Positions 28,814 to 38,274 of a stretch of DNA of 64,000 nucleotides are shown piece after piece; positions within the stretch are counted from its first letter, which is position 1; each line of letters begins with the position of its first letter. Source of the stretch: Haloarcula sp. CBA1127 (lineage in GTDB: Archaea; Halobacteriota; Halobacteria; Halobacteriales; Haloarculaceae). The translations under genes were made by a program, and so were the position numbers. The notes under the pieces are model-generated. The model was not told where the DNA came from and made no database searches. It worked only from the letters and a program-made list of their open reading frames with translations. The stretch is from positions 310,001-374,000 of the forward strand of contig NZ_BCNB01000006.1 of NCBI RefSeq assembly GCF_001485575.1. The letters run 5' to 3'.

Positions 28814-29683
28814 TTATCCGCGGACGGGCATATACGCCATCCCGAGCATCAGCACGGCCGCGATGCCCGAGAGTATCGAGACGCCCCAGAAGCCGTTCTT
28901 ACGCTCGTGGAAGTAGTCCTGCTGGTCGAGCGTCGCCTGATACTGGTCGTACTGCTGAATCGGGACGATCTGGACGGTGCTATGATCGGGGAAGTGCGTG
29001 AAGAACTGCTGCTCGTTCAGCGTGACGTTCCCACCCTCCGAAAGTTCGACCGTGTTCTCGCGCGGGGCGAACCATTCGAGCGTCGCACCGCTGTCGGTCA
29101 CTTCAGAGATTGTGGTCTCCTGCGTGCCGCTGTCGGTCGCGTACGGGTAGGTATCACCGGTCGTGAACGTCACTGTCTCAGGCTCAGGGAGCCACTCACT
29201 CAGCGGGACTTGCGTGTTGTTCGACTGGTAGACCACGTACTCGGTCCCGTTCTGGGTCGCCAGCGTGTTCTTGACCGAGGAGTCCTCGGCGAGGAGCGCG
29301 CTGACGTTGAGTTCTTCTTCGAGGGTCACCGTACTCTCGTTGCTGTCGGTGTGCACGCGGTAGGTGTCGTTCTGATAGGTCGTCGTCGCGTTGTGCTCTA
29401 ACGTCGCAGTGTACTGTGACGACTCGTTCGTCCACGAGAGGTCAGCAGCCATACTGCCACCGCCACCGCCGCCGTGACCGCCACCGCCGCCGCCGGACAT
29501 GTGGATGTTCGTGGCTGTGTATTCCGTTCCGTCGACAGTGAACGTACTCTCGTTGGTCAGTTCGGCGTCAGCGTCGAGCGACACCGCCGGCCGCTGACTC
29601 TCCGCGACGCCGATGTAGGCGTACGCAGCAACACTGATAACGAGGAAGAACGCGAAGTACGCCGCCGCGGCTCGTCGTTGCAT
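28814..29683 (-). CDS. Membrane-anchored extracellular protein, Gly-rich loop
   Basis: A 289-residue protein with one membrane helix at each end (AYFAFFLVISVAAYAYIGVA near residue 9 and GVSILSGIAAVLMLGMAYM near 268). The region between is presumably outside, acidic, with many Asn-x-Ser/Thr sites (NESTF, NATTT, NVSAL, NVTL). A GGGGGGHGGGGGG segment near residue 65 is flexible. Domain organisation fits a haloarchaeal surface protein of unknown function. It is convergent with the small membrane protein upstream. Confidence 0.72.
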   Translation of the reverse strand: MQRRAAAAYFAFFLVISVAAYAYIGVAESQRPAVSLDADAELTNESTFTVDGTEYTATNIHMSGGGGGGHGGGGGGSMAADLSWTNESSQYTATLEHNATTTYQNDTYRVHTDSNESTVTLEEELNVSALLAEDSSVKNTLATQNGTEYVVYQSNNTQVPLSEWLPEPETVTFTTGDTYPYATDSGTQETTISEVTDSGATLEWFAPRENTVELSEGGNVTLNEQQFFTHFPDHSTVQIVPIQQYDQYQATLDQQDYFHERKNGFWGVSILSGIAAVLMLGMAYMPVRG

Positions 29684-29795
29684 ATCAGGAGGGTCAGTCG
29701 CCGCGCCGTTTAATGATTACTTTTCGAGCGTATCGGTACGCGGGTGACACGGGCCGTTTCGCCCCGGCAACGGCGGTGCAGATGCATCACACTGG

Positions 29796-30128
29796 TTAGG
29801 CTGTATCAGACTCGCCAGCGAGAATGGCGTAGCTGTCGAGTGTCCCTGCCATCGACGGGGCGTCCGAATCGTCTTTGCGCTGTGTGCCGTAGTCCATCCA
29901 CACGCCGCTCGTGTAACTGTACATCTCGAAGGCGGCGTCGGTCTCGACGACGATGTCGATGACCGCGTCCTCGGGGGCGTCATCAAGAACAACAGCCGAC
30001 CGGACGTCGTTGTCGTGGTGCATCACCCAGACCGCGACAGCGCCGTCAATGTCATCCAGTAGGGCACTGGCTTCCGTCGGCGAGAACGGGCGGTGAGGCC
30101 AGTCGTCGACAGGTTCTGGCTCGTCCAT
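29796..30128 (-). CDS. Acidic hypothetical protein (110 residues)
   Basis: Soluble acidic protein, family unrecognised, with an alpha/beta pattern: SPTEASALLDDIDGAVAVWVMHHD, then AVIDIVVETDAAFEMY and a Gly/Ser C-terminus. It has haloarchaeal composition, and an upstream gap of 60 bases separates it from the minus-strand small membrane protein behind it. No function proposed. Confidence 0.6.
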   Translation of the reverse strand: MDEPEPVDDWPHRPFSPTEASALLDDIDGAVAVWVMHHDNDVRSAVVLDDAPEDAVIDIVVETDAAFEMYSYTSGVWMDYGTQRKDDSDAPSMAGTLDSYAILAGESDTA

Positions 30129-31455: not shown

Positions 31456-32601
31456 ATGTTGCGGCAGTCCGTCGAGGACGCGTTCACCCTGCTTGCTGTC
31501 CTCGTCGTTCTCTCTCTGGTTATCGGACAACTCCTCGGGCAGCCGGTCCTGCTGGGGTACGTGACATCAGGGAGTATGTCGCCGACACTGAACACGGGCG
31601 ACGCGTTTGTTGCCGTTCCGGCGCCTGTCGCTGGCGAGATCGAGCCAGGGGACGTCATTGTATTCGAAGCGATCGAGCTACAGGGTGGCGGACTGACCAC
31701 ACACCGGGTCGTCGCGGAGACCGACGATGGGTACATCACAAAAGGGGACAACAACCCCTTCAGAGACCAGAGCGGGGATGAGCCGGTTGTCACAGACGAT
31801 CGAGTCGTTGCGACGGCACTGCAGATCAACGGACAGGTCGTTCGGCTCCCCGGCCTCGGTACTGCCATCAGCTCCGCTCGAACGGCGGCAGAAAGCGGAT
31901 TGGTATTGATTGGCGGTTCGGGCAACAGCGACCTGACGAGCGGGAAGGGACTCAGCGGACTGTTCATCTCTATCGGGCTCGGGCTGTTTCTACTCGTCTT
32001 CGTCGACAGCTTCCGGGCCAGCGAGGAGCGGACCAGAGAACGGACTCGTTCGCGCGACGGGGACACGATCAACGGCTGGACGGTCATACTCGCACTGGCA
32101 GTGTTAATTCTCGTCCCAGCCAACGCTGCGATGGTCGCTCCGAGCGGCACTCACAGCGTCACCATCGACAGCACGAGCGAGGATGTCACGCCGGGCGAGC
32201 CTGTCGAAAGCGAGTTCACTGCCGAAAACGGCGGACTGGTGACGATGCTCATCATCCTCGAATCGTCACATCCGGACGCGGCGATGGACCGTAACCAGCT
32301 TGTCGTTCAGCGCGGCGGGTCCGCGACGGCAATGCTGTCAGTGACTGCCCCACCGCCGGGCGAACAGGCGGTCGTGACCGTCGAAGAGCACCGGTACTTC
32401 CTGTTAGCACCGCCGGGCGTCATCGCGGGACTGCACCGAGTCCACCCGCTGGTGGCCATCGGGGCATTCAATTTTCTGGTGTTGGGCAGCCTCACAGCGG
32501 CAGTTGGGGCGACCTTTGGGTTCGGAACAACGCGCGAGCGAAGCCGGGACCGGTCGGTCCCGCTGAAGCGTCAGATACGTCGCCTGCTCGGGCGTGAGTG
32601 A
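31456..32601 (+). CDS. ER-type signal peptidase I (SipW-like)
   Basis: Membrane serine protease that cleaves signal peptides. The 381-residue product has an N-terminal helix (TLLAVLVVLSLVIGQ), the catalytic serine in TSGSMSPTL (near residue 40), then GDVIVFEA and the catalytic histidine in TTHRVV. This is the archaeal/ER Ser-His type, as in bacterial SipW, rather than Ser-Lys. It carries an unusual C-terminal extension: a helix around 175-190, another near 212-225, a beta-rich extracellular domain (TPGEPVESEFTAENGG) and a last helix near 340. Three putative secreted substrates of the DUF1102 type lie within 6 kb. Extended length suggests a dedicated peptidase (inference). Confidence 0.9.
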   Translation: MLRQSVEDAFTLLAVLVVLSLVIGQLLGQPVLLGYVTSGSMSPTLNTGDAFVAVPAPVAGEIEPGDVIVFEAIELQGGGLTTHRVVAETDDGYITKGDNNPFRDQSGDEPVVTDDRVVATALQINGQVVRLPGLGTAISSARTAAESGLVLIGGSGNSDLTSGKGLSGLFISIGLGLFLLVFVDSFRASEERTRERTRSRDGDTINGWTVILALAVLILVPANAAMVAPSGTHSVTIDSTSEDVTPGEPVESEFTAENGGLVTMLIILESSHPDAAMDRNQLVVQRGGSATAMLSVTAPPPGEQAVVTVEEHRYFLLAPPGVIAGLHRVHPLVAIGAFNFLVLGSLTAAVGATFGFGTTRERSRDRSVPLKRQIRRLLGRE

Positions 32602-32609
32602 GGGCGGGT

Positions 32610-33767
32610 TCAGCCGGTGATATCGCCGCCGCCACCGCCTGCGCTTGCTGTGCTTGAACTGTAGAGATTACTCACCTGGTCGGCGGTGAGCGCGGCGTCG
32701 TATACTTTGGGTTCGTCCATGGCGCCGTCGAATCCATAGATATCATTCCCGCCAGAATTGATACCAGTGCCGATTCGAAGGGGTTGGGTTGACGCTTGGG
32801 CATCAGGGAGCGAAAACGTCTGCCCCTTTTGAGCGCCGTTGACGTACACTTTATCCTGTGAACCGTGGGTCCAGACGACGTGTGCCCACTCCCGCTCGGT
32901 TAGCGAGACACCTGTGAGCTCGTTCTTGTCAGTGGTCTCAATGAGCAGTTCTCTTTCGCCAGAGCCCTGCCAACCGCCACCGAAGCCGAACTGATAGCTA
33001 TTATCGCCACTGGAGTTCCACTTGCTGAACAGTCGTGTGAGGCCGTTCTGGGTTCGAGGGAATATCCAAGCAGAGAGCGAGAAGTCGTCAGTCAGGTCAA
33101 GCGTATCATCATCGGGAACGGTGACGGCATCGTTACCATCGAAATTGAGGACTTCGCCGCGGCCCTGACTGGATGTCGCTAGATCCGGTTCATAATTTGT
33201 AAAGAATCCAACATCGTTTCGCTCACCATCGTTGCCAGCAGCCCATACATCCGGGACATCCGTTCTGCTAACATCCTCGAAGTGCCACCACGACACTCTG
33301 GGGTCACGACACTCGACTGAAAGCGACCGGCTCAGTTCGACACGCTGGTCATTACCGGTCGCCGTGATATCGAGAGTGACGGTGGTATTTTCTCCTGAGT
33401 CACAGGAGAGTGTCGTTGTGACATCGCCGCTTTCGCCTGGTAAAAGCCTGTTCGGCGTCTGGACAGTCTCAAGCGGCGGGGCCGGGCCCGGGTTGACGCG
33501 AACACTCGTGAGCTGCTGGTCAAAGTTGTTTGTGAGCGTTGCCAGGGTCACCTGCTGGCCATCCGTGCCAATGACCTTCTGGTCATCCGTGTCACTTCCC
33601 GGCCCGATGTCGATACCAAGTAGTGCATTGCTGTCAGTGGTCGCCGTCTTAAGATAACTGGATCGCTTTGCGTCAATGGTAGTGACACCGGCTGTTTCGG
33701 CAGCGAGCAGTCCTGCACCGCTGGCGATGAACGCGAGTGCGCTGCGCCGGGTCCACTTTTTGCTCAT
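32610..33767 (-). CDS. Secreted LamG/concanavalin-domain protein
   Basis: A 385-residue protein with a Tat-type signal (KKWTRRSALAFIASGAGLLA). The first part resembles a beta-sandwich shared with neighbours (LLGIDIGPGSDTDDQ). The C-terminal 200 residues form a LamG-like domain: LNFDGNDAVTVPDDDTLDL, FSLSAWIFPRT, REWAHVVWTHG, VYVNGAQKGQ and MDEPKVYDAALTADQV. It ends in a Gly-rich tail. Likely binds glycan outside the cell (inference from domain). It overlaps the HTH regulator stop by four bases, which suggests co-regulation, and is convergent with the signal peptidase (8 bases). Confidence 0.85.
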   Translation of the reverse strand: MSKKWTRRSALAFIASGAGLLAAETAGVTTIDAKRSSYLKTATTDSNALLGIDIGPGSDTDDQKVIGTDGQQVTLATLTNNFDQQLTSVRVNPGPAPPLETVQTPNRLLPGESGDVTTTLSCDSGENTTVTLDITATGNDQRVELSRSLSVECRDPRVSWWHFEDVSRTDVPDVWAAGNDGERNDVGFFTNYEPDLATSSQGRGEVLNFDGNDAVTVPDDDTLDLTDDFSLSAWIFPRTQNGLTRLFSKWNSSGDNSYQFGFGGGWQGSGERELLIETTDKNELTGVSLTEREWAHVVWTHGSQDKVYVNGAQKGQTFSLPDAQASTQPLRIGTGINSGGNDIYGFDGAMDEPKVYDAALTADQVSNLYSSSTASAGGGGGDITG

Positions 33768-34324
33768 TCCAGCAGCTCCGGTGGCTTATCGGCTGCGCCG
33801 AGTTGCAACCGGCGGGTCTCCTTGACGTGGTACGCTGCAGAGACCAGGAACAACGACGTGATCACCGACGGCCACACAAGCGATGGAACAGACGATGGGA
33901 AGACACCGACCCAGACAGCGACGACAAGCGCCACCGAGACAGCGGCAAGTCCGAGATAATACTCCGCCCACGGAATCGAATCCCCCGGGACGATGTCAAG
34001 ATACACGTCAAGGCTGTCAGCAGTATCGGTCAGCGTTACCGTGCCATTGTCATGCGTAATGACGCCCGCGCGTTCAAGTGTCGGGAGATGTGTTTGCTGC
34101 ATTGACGTGTACACGCGGTGTCGCTCCGTGGACGTGATTTCCTGAATGCATTTGTCGTTTTCCCACGCAGCGACTTGCTCAGCAAGGTCAGAAAGTTCGG
34201 CACGCTCGTTCTCTTGTTTTATTGCGTGCAAAGCGTACCGACGCCGTTGGTTGCTTAGTATGTCGTATACGTCATCACGCGATAGCTGTCGCTTTTCTGT
34301 CCTGCTAACCCCCACCTGTCCCAT
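33764..34324 (-). CDS. HTH regulator with C-terminal membrane helices (DUF7344-like)
   Basis: A 186-residue protein with an N-terminal winged-helix typical of haloarchaeal regulators: DDVYDILSNQRRRYALHAI, LSDLAEQVAAWEN and VYTSMQQTHLPTLERAGVI. Two membrane helices follow (about 123-142 and 147-165). Membrane-tethered regulators of this kind are common in haloarchaea beside surface-protein genes. A TATA-like TATCAAATAG (about 34345-34355) lies roughly 26 bases before the ATG, so the mRNA is probably leaderless. Its stop overlaps the LamG start (ATGA). Confidence 0.82.
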   Translation of the reverse strand: MGQVGVSRTEKRQLSRDDVYDILSNQRRRYALHAIKQENERAELSDLAEQVAAWENDKCIQEITSTERHRVYTSMQQTHLPTLERAGVITHDNGTVTLTDTADSLDVYLDIVPGDSIPWAEYYLGLAAVSVALVVAVWVGVFPSSVPSLVWPSVITSLFLVSAAYHVKETRRLQLGAADKPPELLE

Positions 34325-34481
34325 GTTTGTATTTAGATTGTACTATTTGATAGACTTTTTGTTCGTACCTGATTCTAAATGATAAGTAAACGCATTTTCT
34401 ATCTCACACATCTACTGTCAGGGACAGGTGTCTGCCAGTAAGAGGGTGTGGTGAAGTGGGGAGTTGGCCAGCAGAAGGAAT

Positions 34482-35108
34482 TTAGCTGATTGTGATTGTC
34501 AGATCTTCAGTTTCCGTGGCGCTGTCGCCCGTCTCCAAGGTTGCAGAGAGATCAGAAACTGAGCCGGCAGACACATCTTCGTTGTAAGTGTCCGTACTAC
34601 CGCCGATTCCGGTAAGAAGGCCGCTGCTAGTGTCTAGATCAACGTTGAAGGTCGTCCCATTTCCGTCGTCGTTGTTGACCAGTTTGAAGAAGCCGCTATT
34701 GTATGTGTATGTACTGTTCGGCATCAGTCGCTCGTCGGTTCCACTGTCCTCGTAGCCAAAGACAACAGACACATCATTCGCGATGAGGCTTACATAGCTC
34801 GTTGAGAGAGCGGTGCCGCCATCAGGAGTAAGAGAGTCACTGCTTGTCGGGAACAGCCCTGTCGGATCCGTGACGAGGTTACCACCGCTATCACGGAGTG
34901 CGACCTCGTTCGCGGACGCATCAACAAGCACGTCAGTAAACTGCGTCGCGATCTCGTCGCCGTTGCCGTCAGCGCCGACGACATTAACCTCCACTTCGCG
35001 TGTTGCGCTGACAGAACTGAATGCACCAGAGCCGAATGCCGCACCAGAGCCGATACCGACTGTCCCAATGAGACCGAGTACGCTTCTGCGGTTCAGTTTC
35101 ATGTTCAA
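34482..35108 (-). CDS. DUF1102-like secreted protein A
   Basis: A 208-residue secreted protein. The signal segment KLNRRSVLGLIGTVGIGSGA runs into GSGAFSSVSATREVEV, the pattern seen in DUF1102 and, more loosely, in TasA/camelysin proteins. The mature part is beta-rich and acidic (DVLVDASANEVAL, VSVVFGYEDSG, SATLETGDSATETEDLTITIS) with no further membrane helix. The start may be two codons later (MKLNRRS). It is divergent from protein B with 115 bases between, which holds AT-rich promoter-like sequence. Confidence 0.82.
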   Translation of the reverse strand: MNMKLNRRSVLGLIGTVGIGSGAAFGSGAFSSVSATREVEVNVVGADGNGDEIATQFTDVLVDASANEVALRDSGGNLVTDPTGLFPTSSDSLTPDGGTALSTSYVSLIANDVSVVFGYEDSGTDERLMPNSTYTYNSGFFKLVNNDDGNGTTFNVDLDTSSGLLTGIGGSTDTYNEDVSAGSVSDLSATLETGDSATETEDLTITIS

Positions 35109-35223
35109 TTCGCTTATCGAGAGGTTACCACTTACTATTTTGTTCCATTAGCCCGGCTAAAGCACTCATTGAAGCCGCTAACGCTGTTCAGTACTAAGCC
35201 GCTATGGCGTGAACTAGCTTCCA

Positions 35224-35793
35224 ATGAACCGGCGTAGATTTCTTCTTAGTATTGGTGCGGCCAGTGTGGGGACGGGTGCGGTGTTTGGATCCGGTGCGTT
35301 CACTTCGATCGAAGCAGACCGGAACGTCAATCTTGAAGTTACCGGCGATACCGGGTCGGCACAGGTGGGATTCAGTCCAGGGAGCGGTGCCACGGACATC
35401 ATCGGAACGGACGCAAGCGAGTCAGTTGACATCATCAATTTCGAGGAAACAAACCTCAACGAACGAGCGAAGACAAGCTTCGAGGACGCTCTACAGGTCG
35501 ACAATAACAGTACATCGAAGGTCGACCTCTATATCGATGACAGCACCGCTGGAGTTGGGGATGACCCCACAAACAGTGAAGTTCTGGACTTCCGGGAAGG
35601 GGATGCCGGCGCATCGATTGTCGGCTCAGCCCAAGCGATCACGCTTGACCCCGACGGGGGGAGTTCAGACGGAGACTATAGCGACACCGTGGAGATAGAC
35701 ATCGTTGTTGACCTCCGGGATGAGGGTGTTGATGGCGAGAATCTCAAGAGCATTAGCGACGTGACCTTCATTGTTGAAGCGGTCCAGCAGTAA
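35224..35793 (+). CDS. DUF1102-like secreted protein B
   Basis: A 189-residue paralogue of protein A. It begins MNRRRFLLSIGAASVGTGA then VFGSGAFTSIEADRNVNLEV, so both share the GSGAF-[ST]-S-[IV]-x-A motif just after the signal. Mature part is acidic and beta-rich (STSKVDLYIDDSTAGVGDD, YSDTVEIDIVVDLRDEGVDG). No second membrane helix. A small secreted, possibly fibre-forming subunit by analogy with TasA (inference). Confidence 0.82.
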   Translation: MNRRRFLLSIGAASVGTGAVFGSGAFTSIEADRNVNLEVTGDTGSAQVGFSPGSGATDIIGTDASESVDIINFEETNLNERAKTSFEDALQVDNNSTSKVDLYIDDSTAGVGDDPTNSEVLDFREGDAGASIVGSAQAITLDPDGGSSDGDYSDTVEIDIVVDLRDEGVDGENLKSISDVTFIVEAVQQ

Positions 35794-35879
35794 GAAGCGG
35801 GGTTCCGACACAGGCCGACCAACAGGTCCAGATACAGGCACGCACGAAGAGACAACGTAGCGGCACACCACAAACACCT

Positions 35880-37091
35880 ATGAATCGCACTCTCGTCGCC
35901 GTCATGGCAGCAGTCGTCCTCCTTGCAGGGACCGCTATGGCGACAGGTGCCTTCATTACCGGCGACGAGGTGGCACCCGACCGGAACTCCGGCGTCTACT
36001 TGGCCCCCGCTGACACCACAAACGGGGACCAGTACGCCAAATATGACGAGACGGGACAGCTACGCATCAGTCTATCACCGGTGCTCCCGAACGGTCAGAC
36101 CCGTGTCGATGACCTGTTTGTCGTTGGCTTTGCGGGCTACGAGGGTAATGGTAGTGCTGCTGCCATCGAACTGGACAGCGAGCCGGAAGCAGTTCGGATA
36201 TACCGGATGGACACTGGGGCACGAGTCGCTGGCGGCACCGTCTCGTTGCAGCCCGGTGAATCAGTTCGCTTTGGGCTGGCAGTGACGCCAGCGGAGCGTA
36301 ACTTCACCGGAACGATATCGATCACCGCCCCTGTTCCCGAACGGCAGTCAACCGAGGAAGGCGAGAGCAACGGTGGGTCCACCGGTGGCGGTAGCGGTGG
36401 CGGCGGTGTATCACCTGGTGGCGATGGAGGAGGCGGTACGCAAGACGGGAGCGATCCTGCAACGCCGACGCCAACGCCAACGCCGGCAGACGATAGCTCG
36501 ACGAACGGGACCGCAAGCGAGGACGAGAACAAGACTGAAACGCCCGCTGGCGGAGGAAGCGGTGGCGGCGGTACTGGCGTTGAGACATCGACCGACGAAT
36601 CGACTGGGACGCCCACCGACAGCGAAGAGGAAACCGAAACAGTGGCCGGCGGTGGCGCTGAGCCCGTGCCGTCGACACCCGAAAGTCAACAGTCAGCCGA
36701 ACCGAACGGATTCACGCTCGGCTTCGAGCCGGCATTCGGAATTAGCTGGGGACCGTGGGCGTTCATCGCTGGCTTGCTCGCTGTAGTGACAAACTACCTC
36801 GTGCAGACGCGATATCACGATGTCCTCCCGGTACTCCAGACGCAACCAAGTGAACGCCGTCGCCGGTTCCGCCGCGTCGCTATCCGCGAAGCAGCGATCG
36901 GTCTTGCCGGGATTGTGCTCACAATTCTTGTCGTGTCAGCGGTTTCGAGCGCTGGCTTCGGCCCAATCACACAGTTGGGTGTTGCACTCGCGTTCTCCGG
37001 TGCAGTCGGCACGGTGACCGGGTACCGACTGGTCCCGGAACTCGATACGATGCTCGAACCACAAGCCGACGACGACGGCACCGAAGAGTAA
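35880..37091 (+). CDS. DUF1102-like surface protein with Gly/Thr/Pro linker and membrane anchor
   Basis: A 403-residue protein. The signal (TLVAVMAAVVLLAGTAMATG) leads to AFITGDEVAPDRN, then a beta-sandwich domain to about residue 160. A disordered linker follows (about 160-270) of GGGSGGG, TPTPTPTP and acidic Thr-rich stretches. Three membrane helices come next (WAFIAGLLAVVTNYLV near 297, IGLAGIVLTILVVSAV near 340 and LGVALAFSGAVGTVTGY near 365). It could anchor proteins A/B to the cell. The linker sites suit O-glycosylation (inference). It follows protein B on the same strand after 86 bases. Confidence 0.82.
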   Translation: MNRTLVAVMAAVVLLAGTAMATGAFITGDEVAPDRNSGVYLAPADTTNGDQYAKYDETGQLRISLSPVLPNGQTRVDDLFVVGFAGYEGNGSAAAIELDSEPEAVRIYRMDTGARVAGGTVSLQPGESVRFGLAVTPAERNFTGTISITAPVPERQSTEEGESNGGSTGGGSGGGGVSPGGDGGGGTQDGSDPATPTPTPTPADDSSTNGTASEDENKTETPAGGGSGGGGTGVETSTDESTGTPTDSEEETETVAGGGAEPVPSTPESQQSAEPNGFTLGFEPAFGISWGPWAFIAGLLAVVTNYLVQTRYHDVLPVLQTQPSERRRRFRRVAIREAAIGLAGIVLTILVVSAVSSAGFGPITQLGVALAFSGAVGTVTGYRLVPELDTMLEPQADDDGTEE

Positions 37092-37104
37092 TAAAATAAC
37101 TCAG

Positions 37105-38274
37105 TCAGTCCGATGTCTCAGCGTCACTGTTGCCCACAGTGGAACCAGTTTCGGGTTCTGGCGGAGGCTCGTACCGAAACAATCGGTCACCAGTGTACAC
37201 GATGAAATCAGAATCGGTATCTGACTCGATTATACGTTCATCGGTGTCGATTGCGACGTCCACGAGCCCGACGAGCGAATCAACGGTCGTCGTCCAGACA
37301 TCATCGTCGACTGGATCAGCCCGGCCGACAGTTATCCATTCGTCAAACTCCTCGCGAGTGGACTTGTATGCGAGCCATCGGCGCTCGGCGTCGGTAAGTG
37401 TGAGATAGTTGGTCGTGCGCCCGTAGACGAGAGCAGCAGCAGCACTAAAGCTACCAAGCAGGAGCACTGGGCCACCGAGAGTCCAGATCGGTCCGTACGC
37501 CTTTTCCACCTGCGCTTCGACGGTTCGGTCACCACTGTTCGTCACCGGGCCAGTGTTTTCGACCCGGTAGCTGCTCTGACTCGGGATAATCGGGAGACGG
37601 TACGTTCGAGTTGTATCGACCGGCTGCCCGTTACGCGGCCCCGAAAGAGCCACCTGAGAGACCACCGCCATCTCCAGTCGACCAGACGTCTGACCGTGTT
37701 CCGAATCGATACGTCGAACGGTTTCGGCTGCGCGACTGACATTCAGCGAGAACGGAACCGTCAGACGTTCACCCACGGCCAGCGACTGCACAGTGCCTTG
37801 TGTCAGTGGTCGTTTGACCTCCCAGTAGACGAGCTCTCCGTTCTGGGTTGATTCGACGGAGCGATACTGAACGAACACGTCAGCCGAGGCAGTAAGATCG
37901 CTTTCGTTGCTGGCGCTGTACGTGTACGTGAACGCGCCGTCCAATACAGGGGCTACCTTCTGGAGATACACAGGTTGGTCTTCAAGCACTTCACCCTCTG
38001 GAAACGCCGAGGTACCGTTACGAACTGTCGCATTGTGGGAGAACGATCCGGACGACTGCCACGACGATACCTGACGCGTAGTTGTATCCGTTCCCGAAGC
38101 AACGTGGCCCGTATACGTGAGATATCCGCCAACCGCAGCGATGGCGATCAGACAAATCAGTAGCAGTTCGTAGTTGTCGACGACTGTCCGTCGTGTTTCC
38201 CGTCCCAACAACCCCATTGCAACTGTAATACTGGTGCCGACAAATAAGAGTTGATACCAGGTCAGCAGCGGCAT
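37105..38274 (-). CDS. DUF5305-like membrane protein
   Basis: A 389-residue protein with helices near residues 5-22 and 38-54 (LLLICLIAIAAVGGYLTYTG), an extracellular beta-rich domain with NxS/T sites (NATVRNGT, SASNES, LNVSRAAE), a further helix near 265-282 (LGGPVLLLGSFSAAAALVYG) and an acidic cytoplasmic tail. This arrangement is what I recall for DUF5305, often beside haloarchaeal signal peptidases and DUF1102 proteins. It is convergent with the anchored surface protein (13 bases). Function not established. Confidence 0.78.
   Translation of the reverse strand: MPLLTWYQLLFVGTSITVAMGLLGRETRRTVVDNYELLLICLIAIAAVGGYLTYTGHVASGTDTTTRQVSSWQSSGSFSHNATVRNGTSAFPEGEVLEDQPVYLQKVAPVLDGAFTYTYSASNESDLTASADVFVQYRSVESTQNGELVYWEVKRPLTQGTVQSLAVGERLTVPFSLNVSRAAETVRRIDSEHGQTSGRLEMAVVSQVALSGPRNGQPVDTTRTYRLPIIPSQSSYRVENTGPVTNSGDRTVEAQVEKAYGPIWTLGGPVLLLGSFSAAAALVYGRTTNYLTLTDAERRWLAYKSTREEFDEWITVGRADPVDDDVWTTTVDSLVGLVDVAIDTDERIIESDTDSDFIVYTGDRLFRYEPPPEPETGSTVGNSDAETSD

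Follow-up and report, generated by a model that had tools for sequence, protein, structure and literature searches.

A very probable tafi fibre locus adjoining an extended ER-type signal peptidase gene in Haloarcula sp. CBA1127

Results and discussion

Gene content and family assignment

The region from position 31456 to 38274 of the window, by which we mean the whole 64,000-nucleotide stretch of Haloarcula sp. CBA1127 that was analysed, holds seven tightly packed open reading frames, as a check of the reading frames of the window confirmed. They lie in the order signal peptidase (plus strand), tafC (minus), a gene for a DUF7344 protein (minus), tafA (minus), tafE (plus), tafF (plus) and a gene for a DUF5305 protein (minus). 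The genes tafA and tafE are divergent, with a gap of 121 bases between them. The locus is flanked by two small genes that are conserved in Haloarcula and by an rRNA operon.

Family membership was assigned with NCBIfam equivalog models, which have curated cut-off values, and a Pfam scan was carried out alongside. Four of the products are fimbrial subunits by these models. The main subunit TafA (34482..35102, minus strand) reached 245 bits against a cut-off of 190 (E=5.6e-73), and TafE (35224..35793, plus strand), presumably the adapter subunit as its NCBIfam name implies, 222 bits against 155 (E=5.3e-66). TafC (32610..33767, minus strand) scored 542 bits with a cut-off of 410 (E=7.5e-163), and TafF (35880..37091, plus strand) 567 bits with a cut-off of 420 (E=2.7e-170). 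TafC is modular and consists here of an N-terminal fimbrial domain of ~145 residues and a C-terminal, concanavalin-like LamG part (Laminin_G_3 in Pfam, E=2.2e-23). Other, larger C-terminal parts follow the N-terminal domain in four other loci (L046, L048, L049 and L050); this variety fits the role of a tip adhesin, which TafC probably is, judging from its domains.

Tafi (Tat-fimbriae), which have only lately been recognised as a class of their own among archaeal surface fibres, are unusual in the Tat export of their pilus subunits. The system as such is already known: a passage of PMC12687288 describes thin filamentous appendages, ‘tafi’, with components that are exported via the haloarchaeal Tat pathway and with TafA as the core component, and cites Galeva et al. 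2025, iScience 28:111793. Haloarchaeal tafi and the locus in the window are alike in the four named subunits, the twin-arginine signals and the gene set, and we found no essential difference between them. We are thus confident that the seven genes form a complete haloarchaeal tafi locus, which would work along the lines of the mechanism proposed below. At the level of its genes, a fibre locus with a signal peptidase of its own is supported as well.

Export signals and the common N-terminus

The start of TafA was placed at the ATG at 35102; an alternative TTG start upstream would add only two residues. In both TafA and TafE the motif GSGAF[ST]S closes a twin-arginine signal, the two arginines of which are invariant in the alignments of 15 TafA and 16 TafE sequences. 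The mature protein probably begins at Ala27 or Phe28 in TafA and at Ala25 or Phe26 in TafE. The two mature proteins then start alike, with AF[ST]S-V-x-A-x-R-x-V. Comparison of the two families with hhalign gave 48% identity over columns 1-40 and none that was detectable beyond, so that the common block comprises the signal and about 14 mature residues, while the bodies of the proteins are not detectably alike.

TafC, the sequence of which starts with MSKKWTRRSAL, also has a twin-arginine signal, but its motif is degenerate in the window (AGVTTIDAKR, not GAFTS). The first-pass annotation, which had been made from the sequence before any database search, rightly listed this product as a secreted LamG protein but missed that it is itself a fimbrial subunit. 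TafF had been taken for a third secreted subunit of the same kind as TafA and TafE. It does have a TGAF motif, but its N-terminal hydrophobic signal is without the arginine pair, its middle part is of low complexity, and two hydrophobic segments lie towards its C-terminus (residues 285-303 and 338-356 by hydropathy). TafF is thus a protein of another kind than these two subunits. It is a probable membrane anchor.

DNA encoding hexapeptides like G-[ST]-[GA]-A-F-[ST] was found at 12 places in the genome, compared with 21 in a reversed control, and the motif was thus rejected as a genome-wide signature. Only the sites in tafA and tafE end a twin-arginine signal, and it is because of this position that we regard these two as beyond chance.

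Related loci

Among the 146 genomes of the family, 14 encode a TafA above the cut-off. In other genomes, 16 loci that surround TafA matches and span up to 20 kb nearly always have the seven kinds of gene together. Complete loci are present in Haloarcula amylolytica, H. vallismortis, H. argentinensis and H. sebkhae, in Haloferax larsenii and Haloferax elongans, and in Halovenus rubra. Looser loci in Natronorubrum and Halorubrum contain the peptidase, DUF5305, DUF7344 and GAF-signal proteins, often together with a TafF-like protein.

In Halorubrum, one TafF homologue and one GAF-signal protein match DUF1102 (PF06510) above the cut-off. The first-pass annotation had described three proteins of the window as DUF1102-like; that they are secreted and carry GAF-type motifs at their signals could be upheld, but none of the window proteins matches PF06510 in Pfam. 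A genome-wide search was negative too, with controls that were equally silent, so that the absence of a match is weak evidence when taken alone.

Two versions of the locus occupy one site in Haloarcula. In type I, to which the window belongs, the sole DUF5305 gene adjoins tafF, whereas in type II a further DUF5305 gene separates tafC from the peptidase gene. TafA and TafE of type II are only 35-45% identical to those of type I. Further Haloarcula tafi loci agree with the window in the order and set of genes; in one of them the identity to the window is 83% for TafA, 84% for TafC and 96% for the peptidase. Compared with near relatives in general, TafA, TafC, TafE and TafF of the window show 81-90% identity in most pairs, and the peptidase and the DUF7344 protein 93-96%. 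Faster divergence of the subunits is expected for exposed surface proteins, and with dN/dS < 0.32 between the window and its near relatives it is no proof of positive selection.

DUF5305, DUF7344 and a candidate operator

Pfam matches confirmed the two remaining proteins as the first-pass annotation had described them, namely a DUF5305-like membrane protein and a membrane-bound HTH regulator, except that the regulator role of the latter is only probable. The DUF5305 protein (37105..38274, minus strand; E=4.7e-45) is encoded in nearly all taf loci compared, and it is possibly an assembly or anchoring factor. The DUF7344 protein (33764..34324, minus strand; E=7.7e-27) combines a winged helix with a hydrophobic segment in its C-terminal part. 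All but one of 16 taf loci contain its gene, and the protein is probably a local regulator of the divergent tafA/tafE promoters.

A candidate operator lies in this divergent promoter region. The dyad TTAGCCCGGCTAA at 35148..35160 is the sole match to TTAGN5CTAA in the window, where 0.06 matches are expected. Most type I loci, that of Haloferax larsenii among them, also have it between tafA and tafE, and the counterpart in one locus (L038) has symmetric base changes. The motif was not found in type II loci, and we thus rejected it as a universal tafi operator.

The extended signal peptidase

The first gene of the locus (31456..32601, plus strand) encodes an ER-type (S26B) signal peptidase of 381 aa with a C-terminal extension, as had been noticed from the sequence. 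It scored 68 bits with TIGR02228 (cut-off 51.85, E=6.2e-19), and its Ser40-Met41 and His83 are invariant in nine aligned sequences. The only PDB sequences that it matches are SEC11 chains. Hydropathy analysis gave hydrophobic segments at residues 9-27, 165-183, 210-228 and 329-347; the extension lies between added hydrophobic segments, and residues ~229-328 are presumed to form an external domain. The extension is conserved, and a profile of it (residue 197 to the end) matched a single place in the source genome.

Since this is the only peptidase of the genome above the TIGR02228 cut-off, it might be the general signal peptidase of the cell, which lies beside genes of secreted proteins by chance. 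Two other proteins encoded elsewhere in the genome match the signal peptidase model, however, and these ER-type relatives are shorter and lack the extension. The extended peptidase also follows the presumed substrates across the genus: it was found in all 24 congeners with a match to the TafA profile (that is, with GAF-signal proteins) but in only one of eight without, this exception being a weak match in a 71%-complete genome. The hypergeometric chance of such a split is ~2e-6 if kinship is ignored. Five near-complete congeners have neither the extended peptidase nor GAF-signal proteins, which argues that it is not the general signal peptidase. Finally, in all eleven congeners without TafA proper for which both positions were listed, the peptidase gene is located ≤5 kb from a gene of a GAF-signal protein. 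We thus consider a general peptidase at this place by chance very improbable.

A peptidase devoted to the fibre, as its distribution makes it appear, is also in line with a rough count across the class. Among the matches listed, 35 of 49 matches to the TafC N-terminal domain lie ≤10 kb from the peptidase, compared with 2 of 14 LamG-only matches; TafC matches without the signal region are for the most part distant. The linkage between peptidase and fibre genes is strong but not absolute, as a plasmid-sized contig (L047) carries tafA, tafE and tafF without a peptidase of their own, while the same genome has a complete chromosomal locus. The strong tie between extended peptidase and GAF-signal subunits makes the idea of a dedicated peptidase directly testable.

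Comparison with a solved tafi pilus

PDB entry 9P0A, with the title ‘Structure of Natrinema sp. J7-2 Tafi pilus’, is matched by the TafA profile with E=1.4e-14, over the first 60 residues only, and by the TafE profile with E=1.2e-20, and it is the sole relevant PDB sequence for each of them. The entry has 188 modelled residues, the last of which is residue 215. From these lengths we deduced Phe28 of ...GTGAFSS to be the first ordered residue, so that order begins at the GAF motif.

The start of the ordered chain bears on the question of how the subunits are joined. They could polymerise without donor-strand exchange, for instance if they were stacked or covalently linked; the common N-terminus would then be a signal for export and cleavage only. 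This would agree with the fact that the common block includes the signal itself, as the surroundings of the cleavage site may be kept for the peptidase alone. However, the block includes ~14 mature residues with the beta-strand-like alternation R-x-V-E-V-N, and the lengths in 9P0A imply that the chain is ordered from Phe28 onwards. Polymerisation of this other kind is therefore unlikely.

AlphaFold gave no usable model for mature TafA (mean pLDDT 33), and the fold of this subunit is thus known only via the 9P0A match. For TafE a structure model of moderate quality was obtained (pLDDT 68). Its top match was 9P0A in both Foldseek and VIA-align (Z 7.6, 123 residues, 3.3 Å), although according to the tool's own warning a Z below 8 may reflect no more than a common arrangement. 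The second row was AbpA of Pyrobaculum calidifontis (7UEG; Z 5.7, 119 residues, 4.1 Å), and TasA (5OF2) reached Z 5.1. AbpA and TafE share ~10% identity, no sequence match between them was found, and unrelated rows, among them a CUB domain and PapD-like domains, also scored Z 5.0-5.7. The TafE model thus shows a visible but weak likeness to TasA and the bundling pilus of Pyrobaculum.

Comparison with the SipW/TasA system of Bacillus

In the tapA-sipW-tasA operon of Bacillus, as in the tafi locus, the gene of an ER-type peptidase adjoins those of fibre subunits, the mature subunits begin with AF, and the beta-sandwich folds may be weakly similar. Phe29 of TasA makes a donor-strand contact, and the N-terminus of Bacillus TapA resembles the TasA donor strand (PMC9674648). 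These likenesses, including the TafE model scores with 7UEG and 5OF2, would suit a real SipW/TasA (camelysin) system in archaea, one that is homologous throughout and not just alike in its working. Against this, the peptidase reached only 43.4 bits with the SipW model NF046067, the cut-off of which is 190, and no window protein matched the TasA/camelysin or SipW-signal models of Pfam and NCBIfam at E<=1. The tafi signals are twin-arginine signals, so that export is by Tat and not Sec, the subunits belong to other families, and the same Z values are reached by unrelated folds. The external domain of the peptidase, TafC, TafF, DUF5305 and DUF7344 are all additional to the Bacillus system.

We therefore hold homology throughout to be quite unlikely, even a little more so than polymerisation without donor strands. 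The SipW/TasA-like locus of the first-pass annotation is correct as a surface-fibre locus with its own peptidase, but the locus is of the known tafi kind. As an analogy of working, with a dedicated peptidase, fibre subunits and an N-terminal donor strand, the comparison seems reasonable.

Proposed assembly mechanism

The Tat pathway is a carrier of folded proteins. We infer that TafA, TafE and TafC, with their similar N-termini, would leave the cell by this route and arrive folded but still tethered by the signal. The extended peptidase would then cut at the GAF site and free the donor strand, which would fill the next subunit, so that donor-strand assembly is triggered by cleavage. The N-terminal block common to TafA and TafE fits a donor strand that both subunits share, and a strand directly behind the signal could not move to the next subunit before the peptidase has cut. 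In the resulting fibre TafE would act as the adapter, TafC as the tip and TafF as the membrane anchor, with the DUF5305 protein as a possible helper and the DUF7344 protein controlling the divergent tafA/tafE promoters.

More tentatively, the extended peptidase may itself be the trigger of assembly, with its external domain holding the growing fibre. The set of this peptidase with GAF-signal proteins, DUF5305 and DUF7344 would extend well beyond the named taf families to most haloarchaeal genera, with interchangeable adhesin domains in TafC. We regard this wider proposal as possible, but not as the likelier outcome. If true, it would explain how an exporter of folded proteins can feed a donor-strand fibre, and the extended peptidase could serve as a genomic marker for the many tafi-like loci that present family models leave unnamed. 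The extension was detected in 51 of the 65 haloarchaeal genera sampled.

Organization of the taf loci

The taf locus of the window is adjoined by two small genes (28814-30128), which encode proteins of 289 and 110 amino acids without a match to any Pfam family above the cut-off. Both genes are kept beside the taf locus in those Haloarcula loci whose sequence covers that side, with the sole exception of L038, in which the 110-aa gene was not found. Between the main subunit gene tafA and the adapter gene tafE, TATA-like boxes are located about 30 bases upstream of the ATG for both genes (35090-35240), a spacing that fits divergent transcription into leaderless mRNAs. The distance between the two genes is nearly constant, with 118-121 bases in type I loci, where the sole DUF5305 gene lies beside tafF, and 167-177 bases in type II loci, which carry an additional DUF5305 gene between tafC and the peptidase gene.

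In three type II loci (L040, L042 and L048), the DUF5305 gene on the outer side, which adjoins the type II cassette, is truncated, frameshifted or shortened. Moreover, the TafF protein of L048 resembles type I only in its C-terminal part. These altered DUF5305 genes and the partly type I-like TafF are signs of cassette replacement at the taf site of these loci.

Genome G020 contains two taf sets, a complete chromosomal locus and a partial second set of tafA, tafE and tafF (7985-10677 of L047) on a plasmid-sized contig of 33,452 bases. The peptidase, TafC, DUF7344 and DUF5305 were not detected in the 20 kb taken around the TafA match of L047.

Tafi-like loci in Halorubrum

Six Halorubrum loci (L060-L065) are tafi-like and combine several GAF-signal proteins with DUF7344, an extended peptidase, DUF5305 and a DUF1102/TafF-like protein. 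The only TafE-like protein tested from these loci scored below the NCBIfam cut-off. The loci probably represent a related fibre family that has no name. The TafF-like protein of L062 (11425-12972) was also matched by the PGF-pre-PGF domain model, just above the cut-off.
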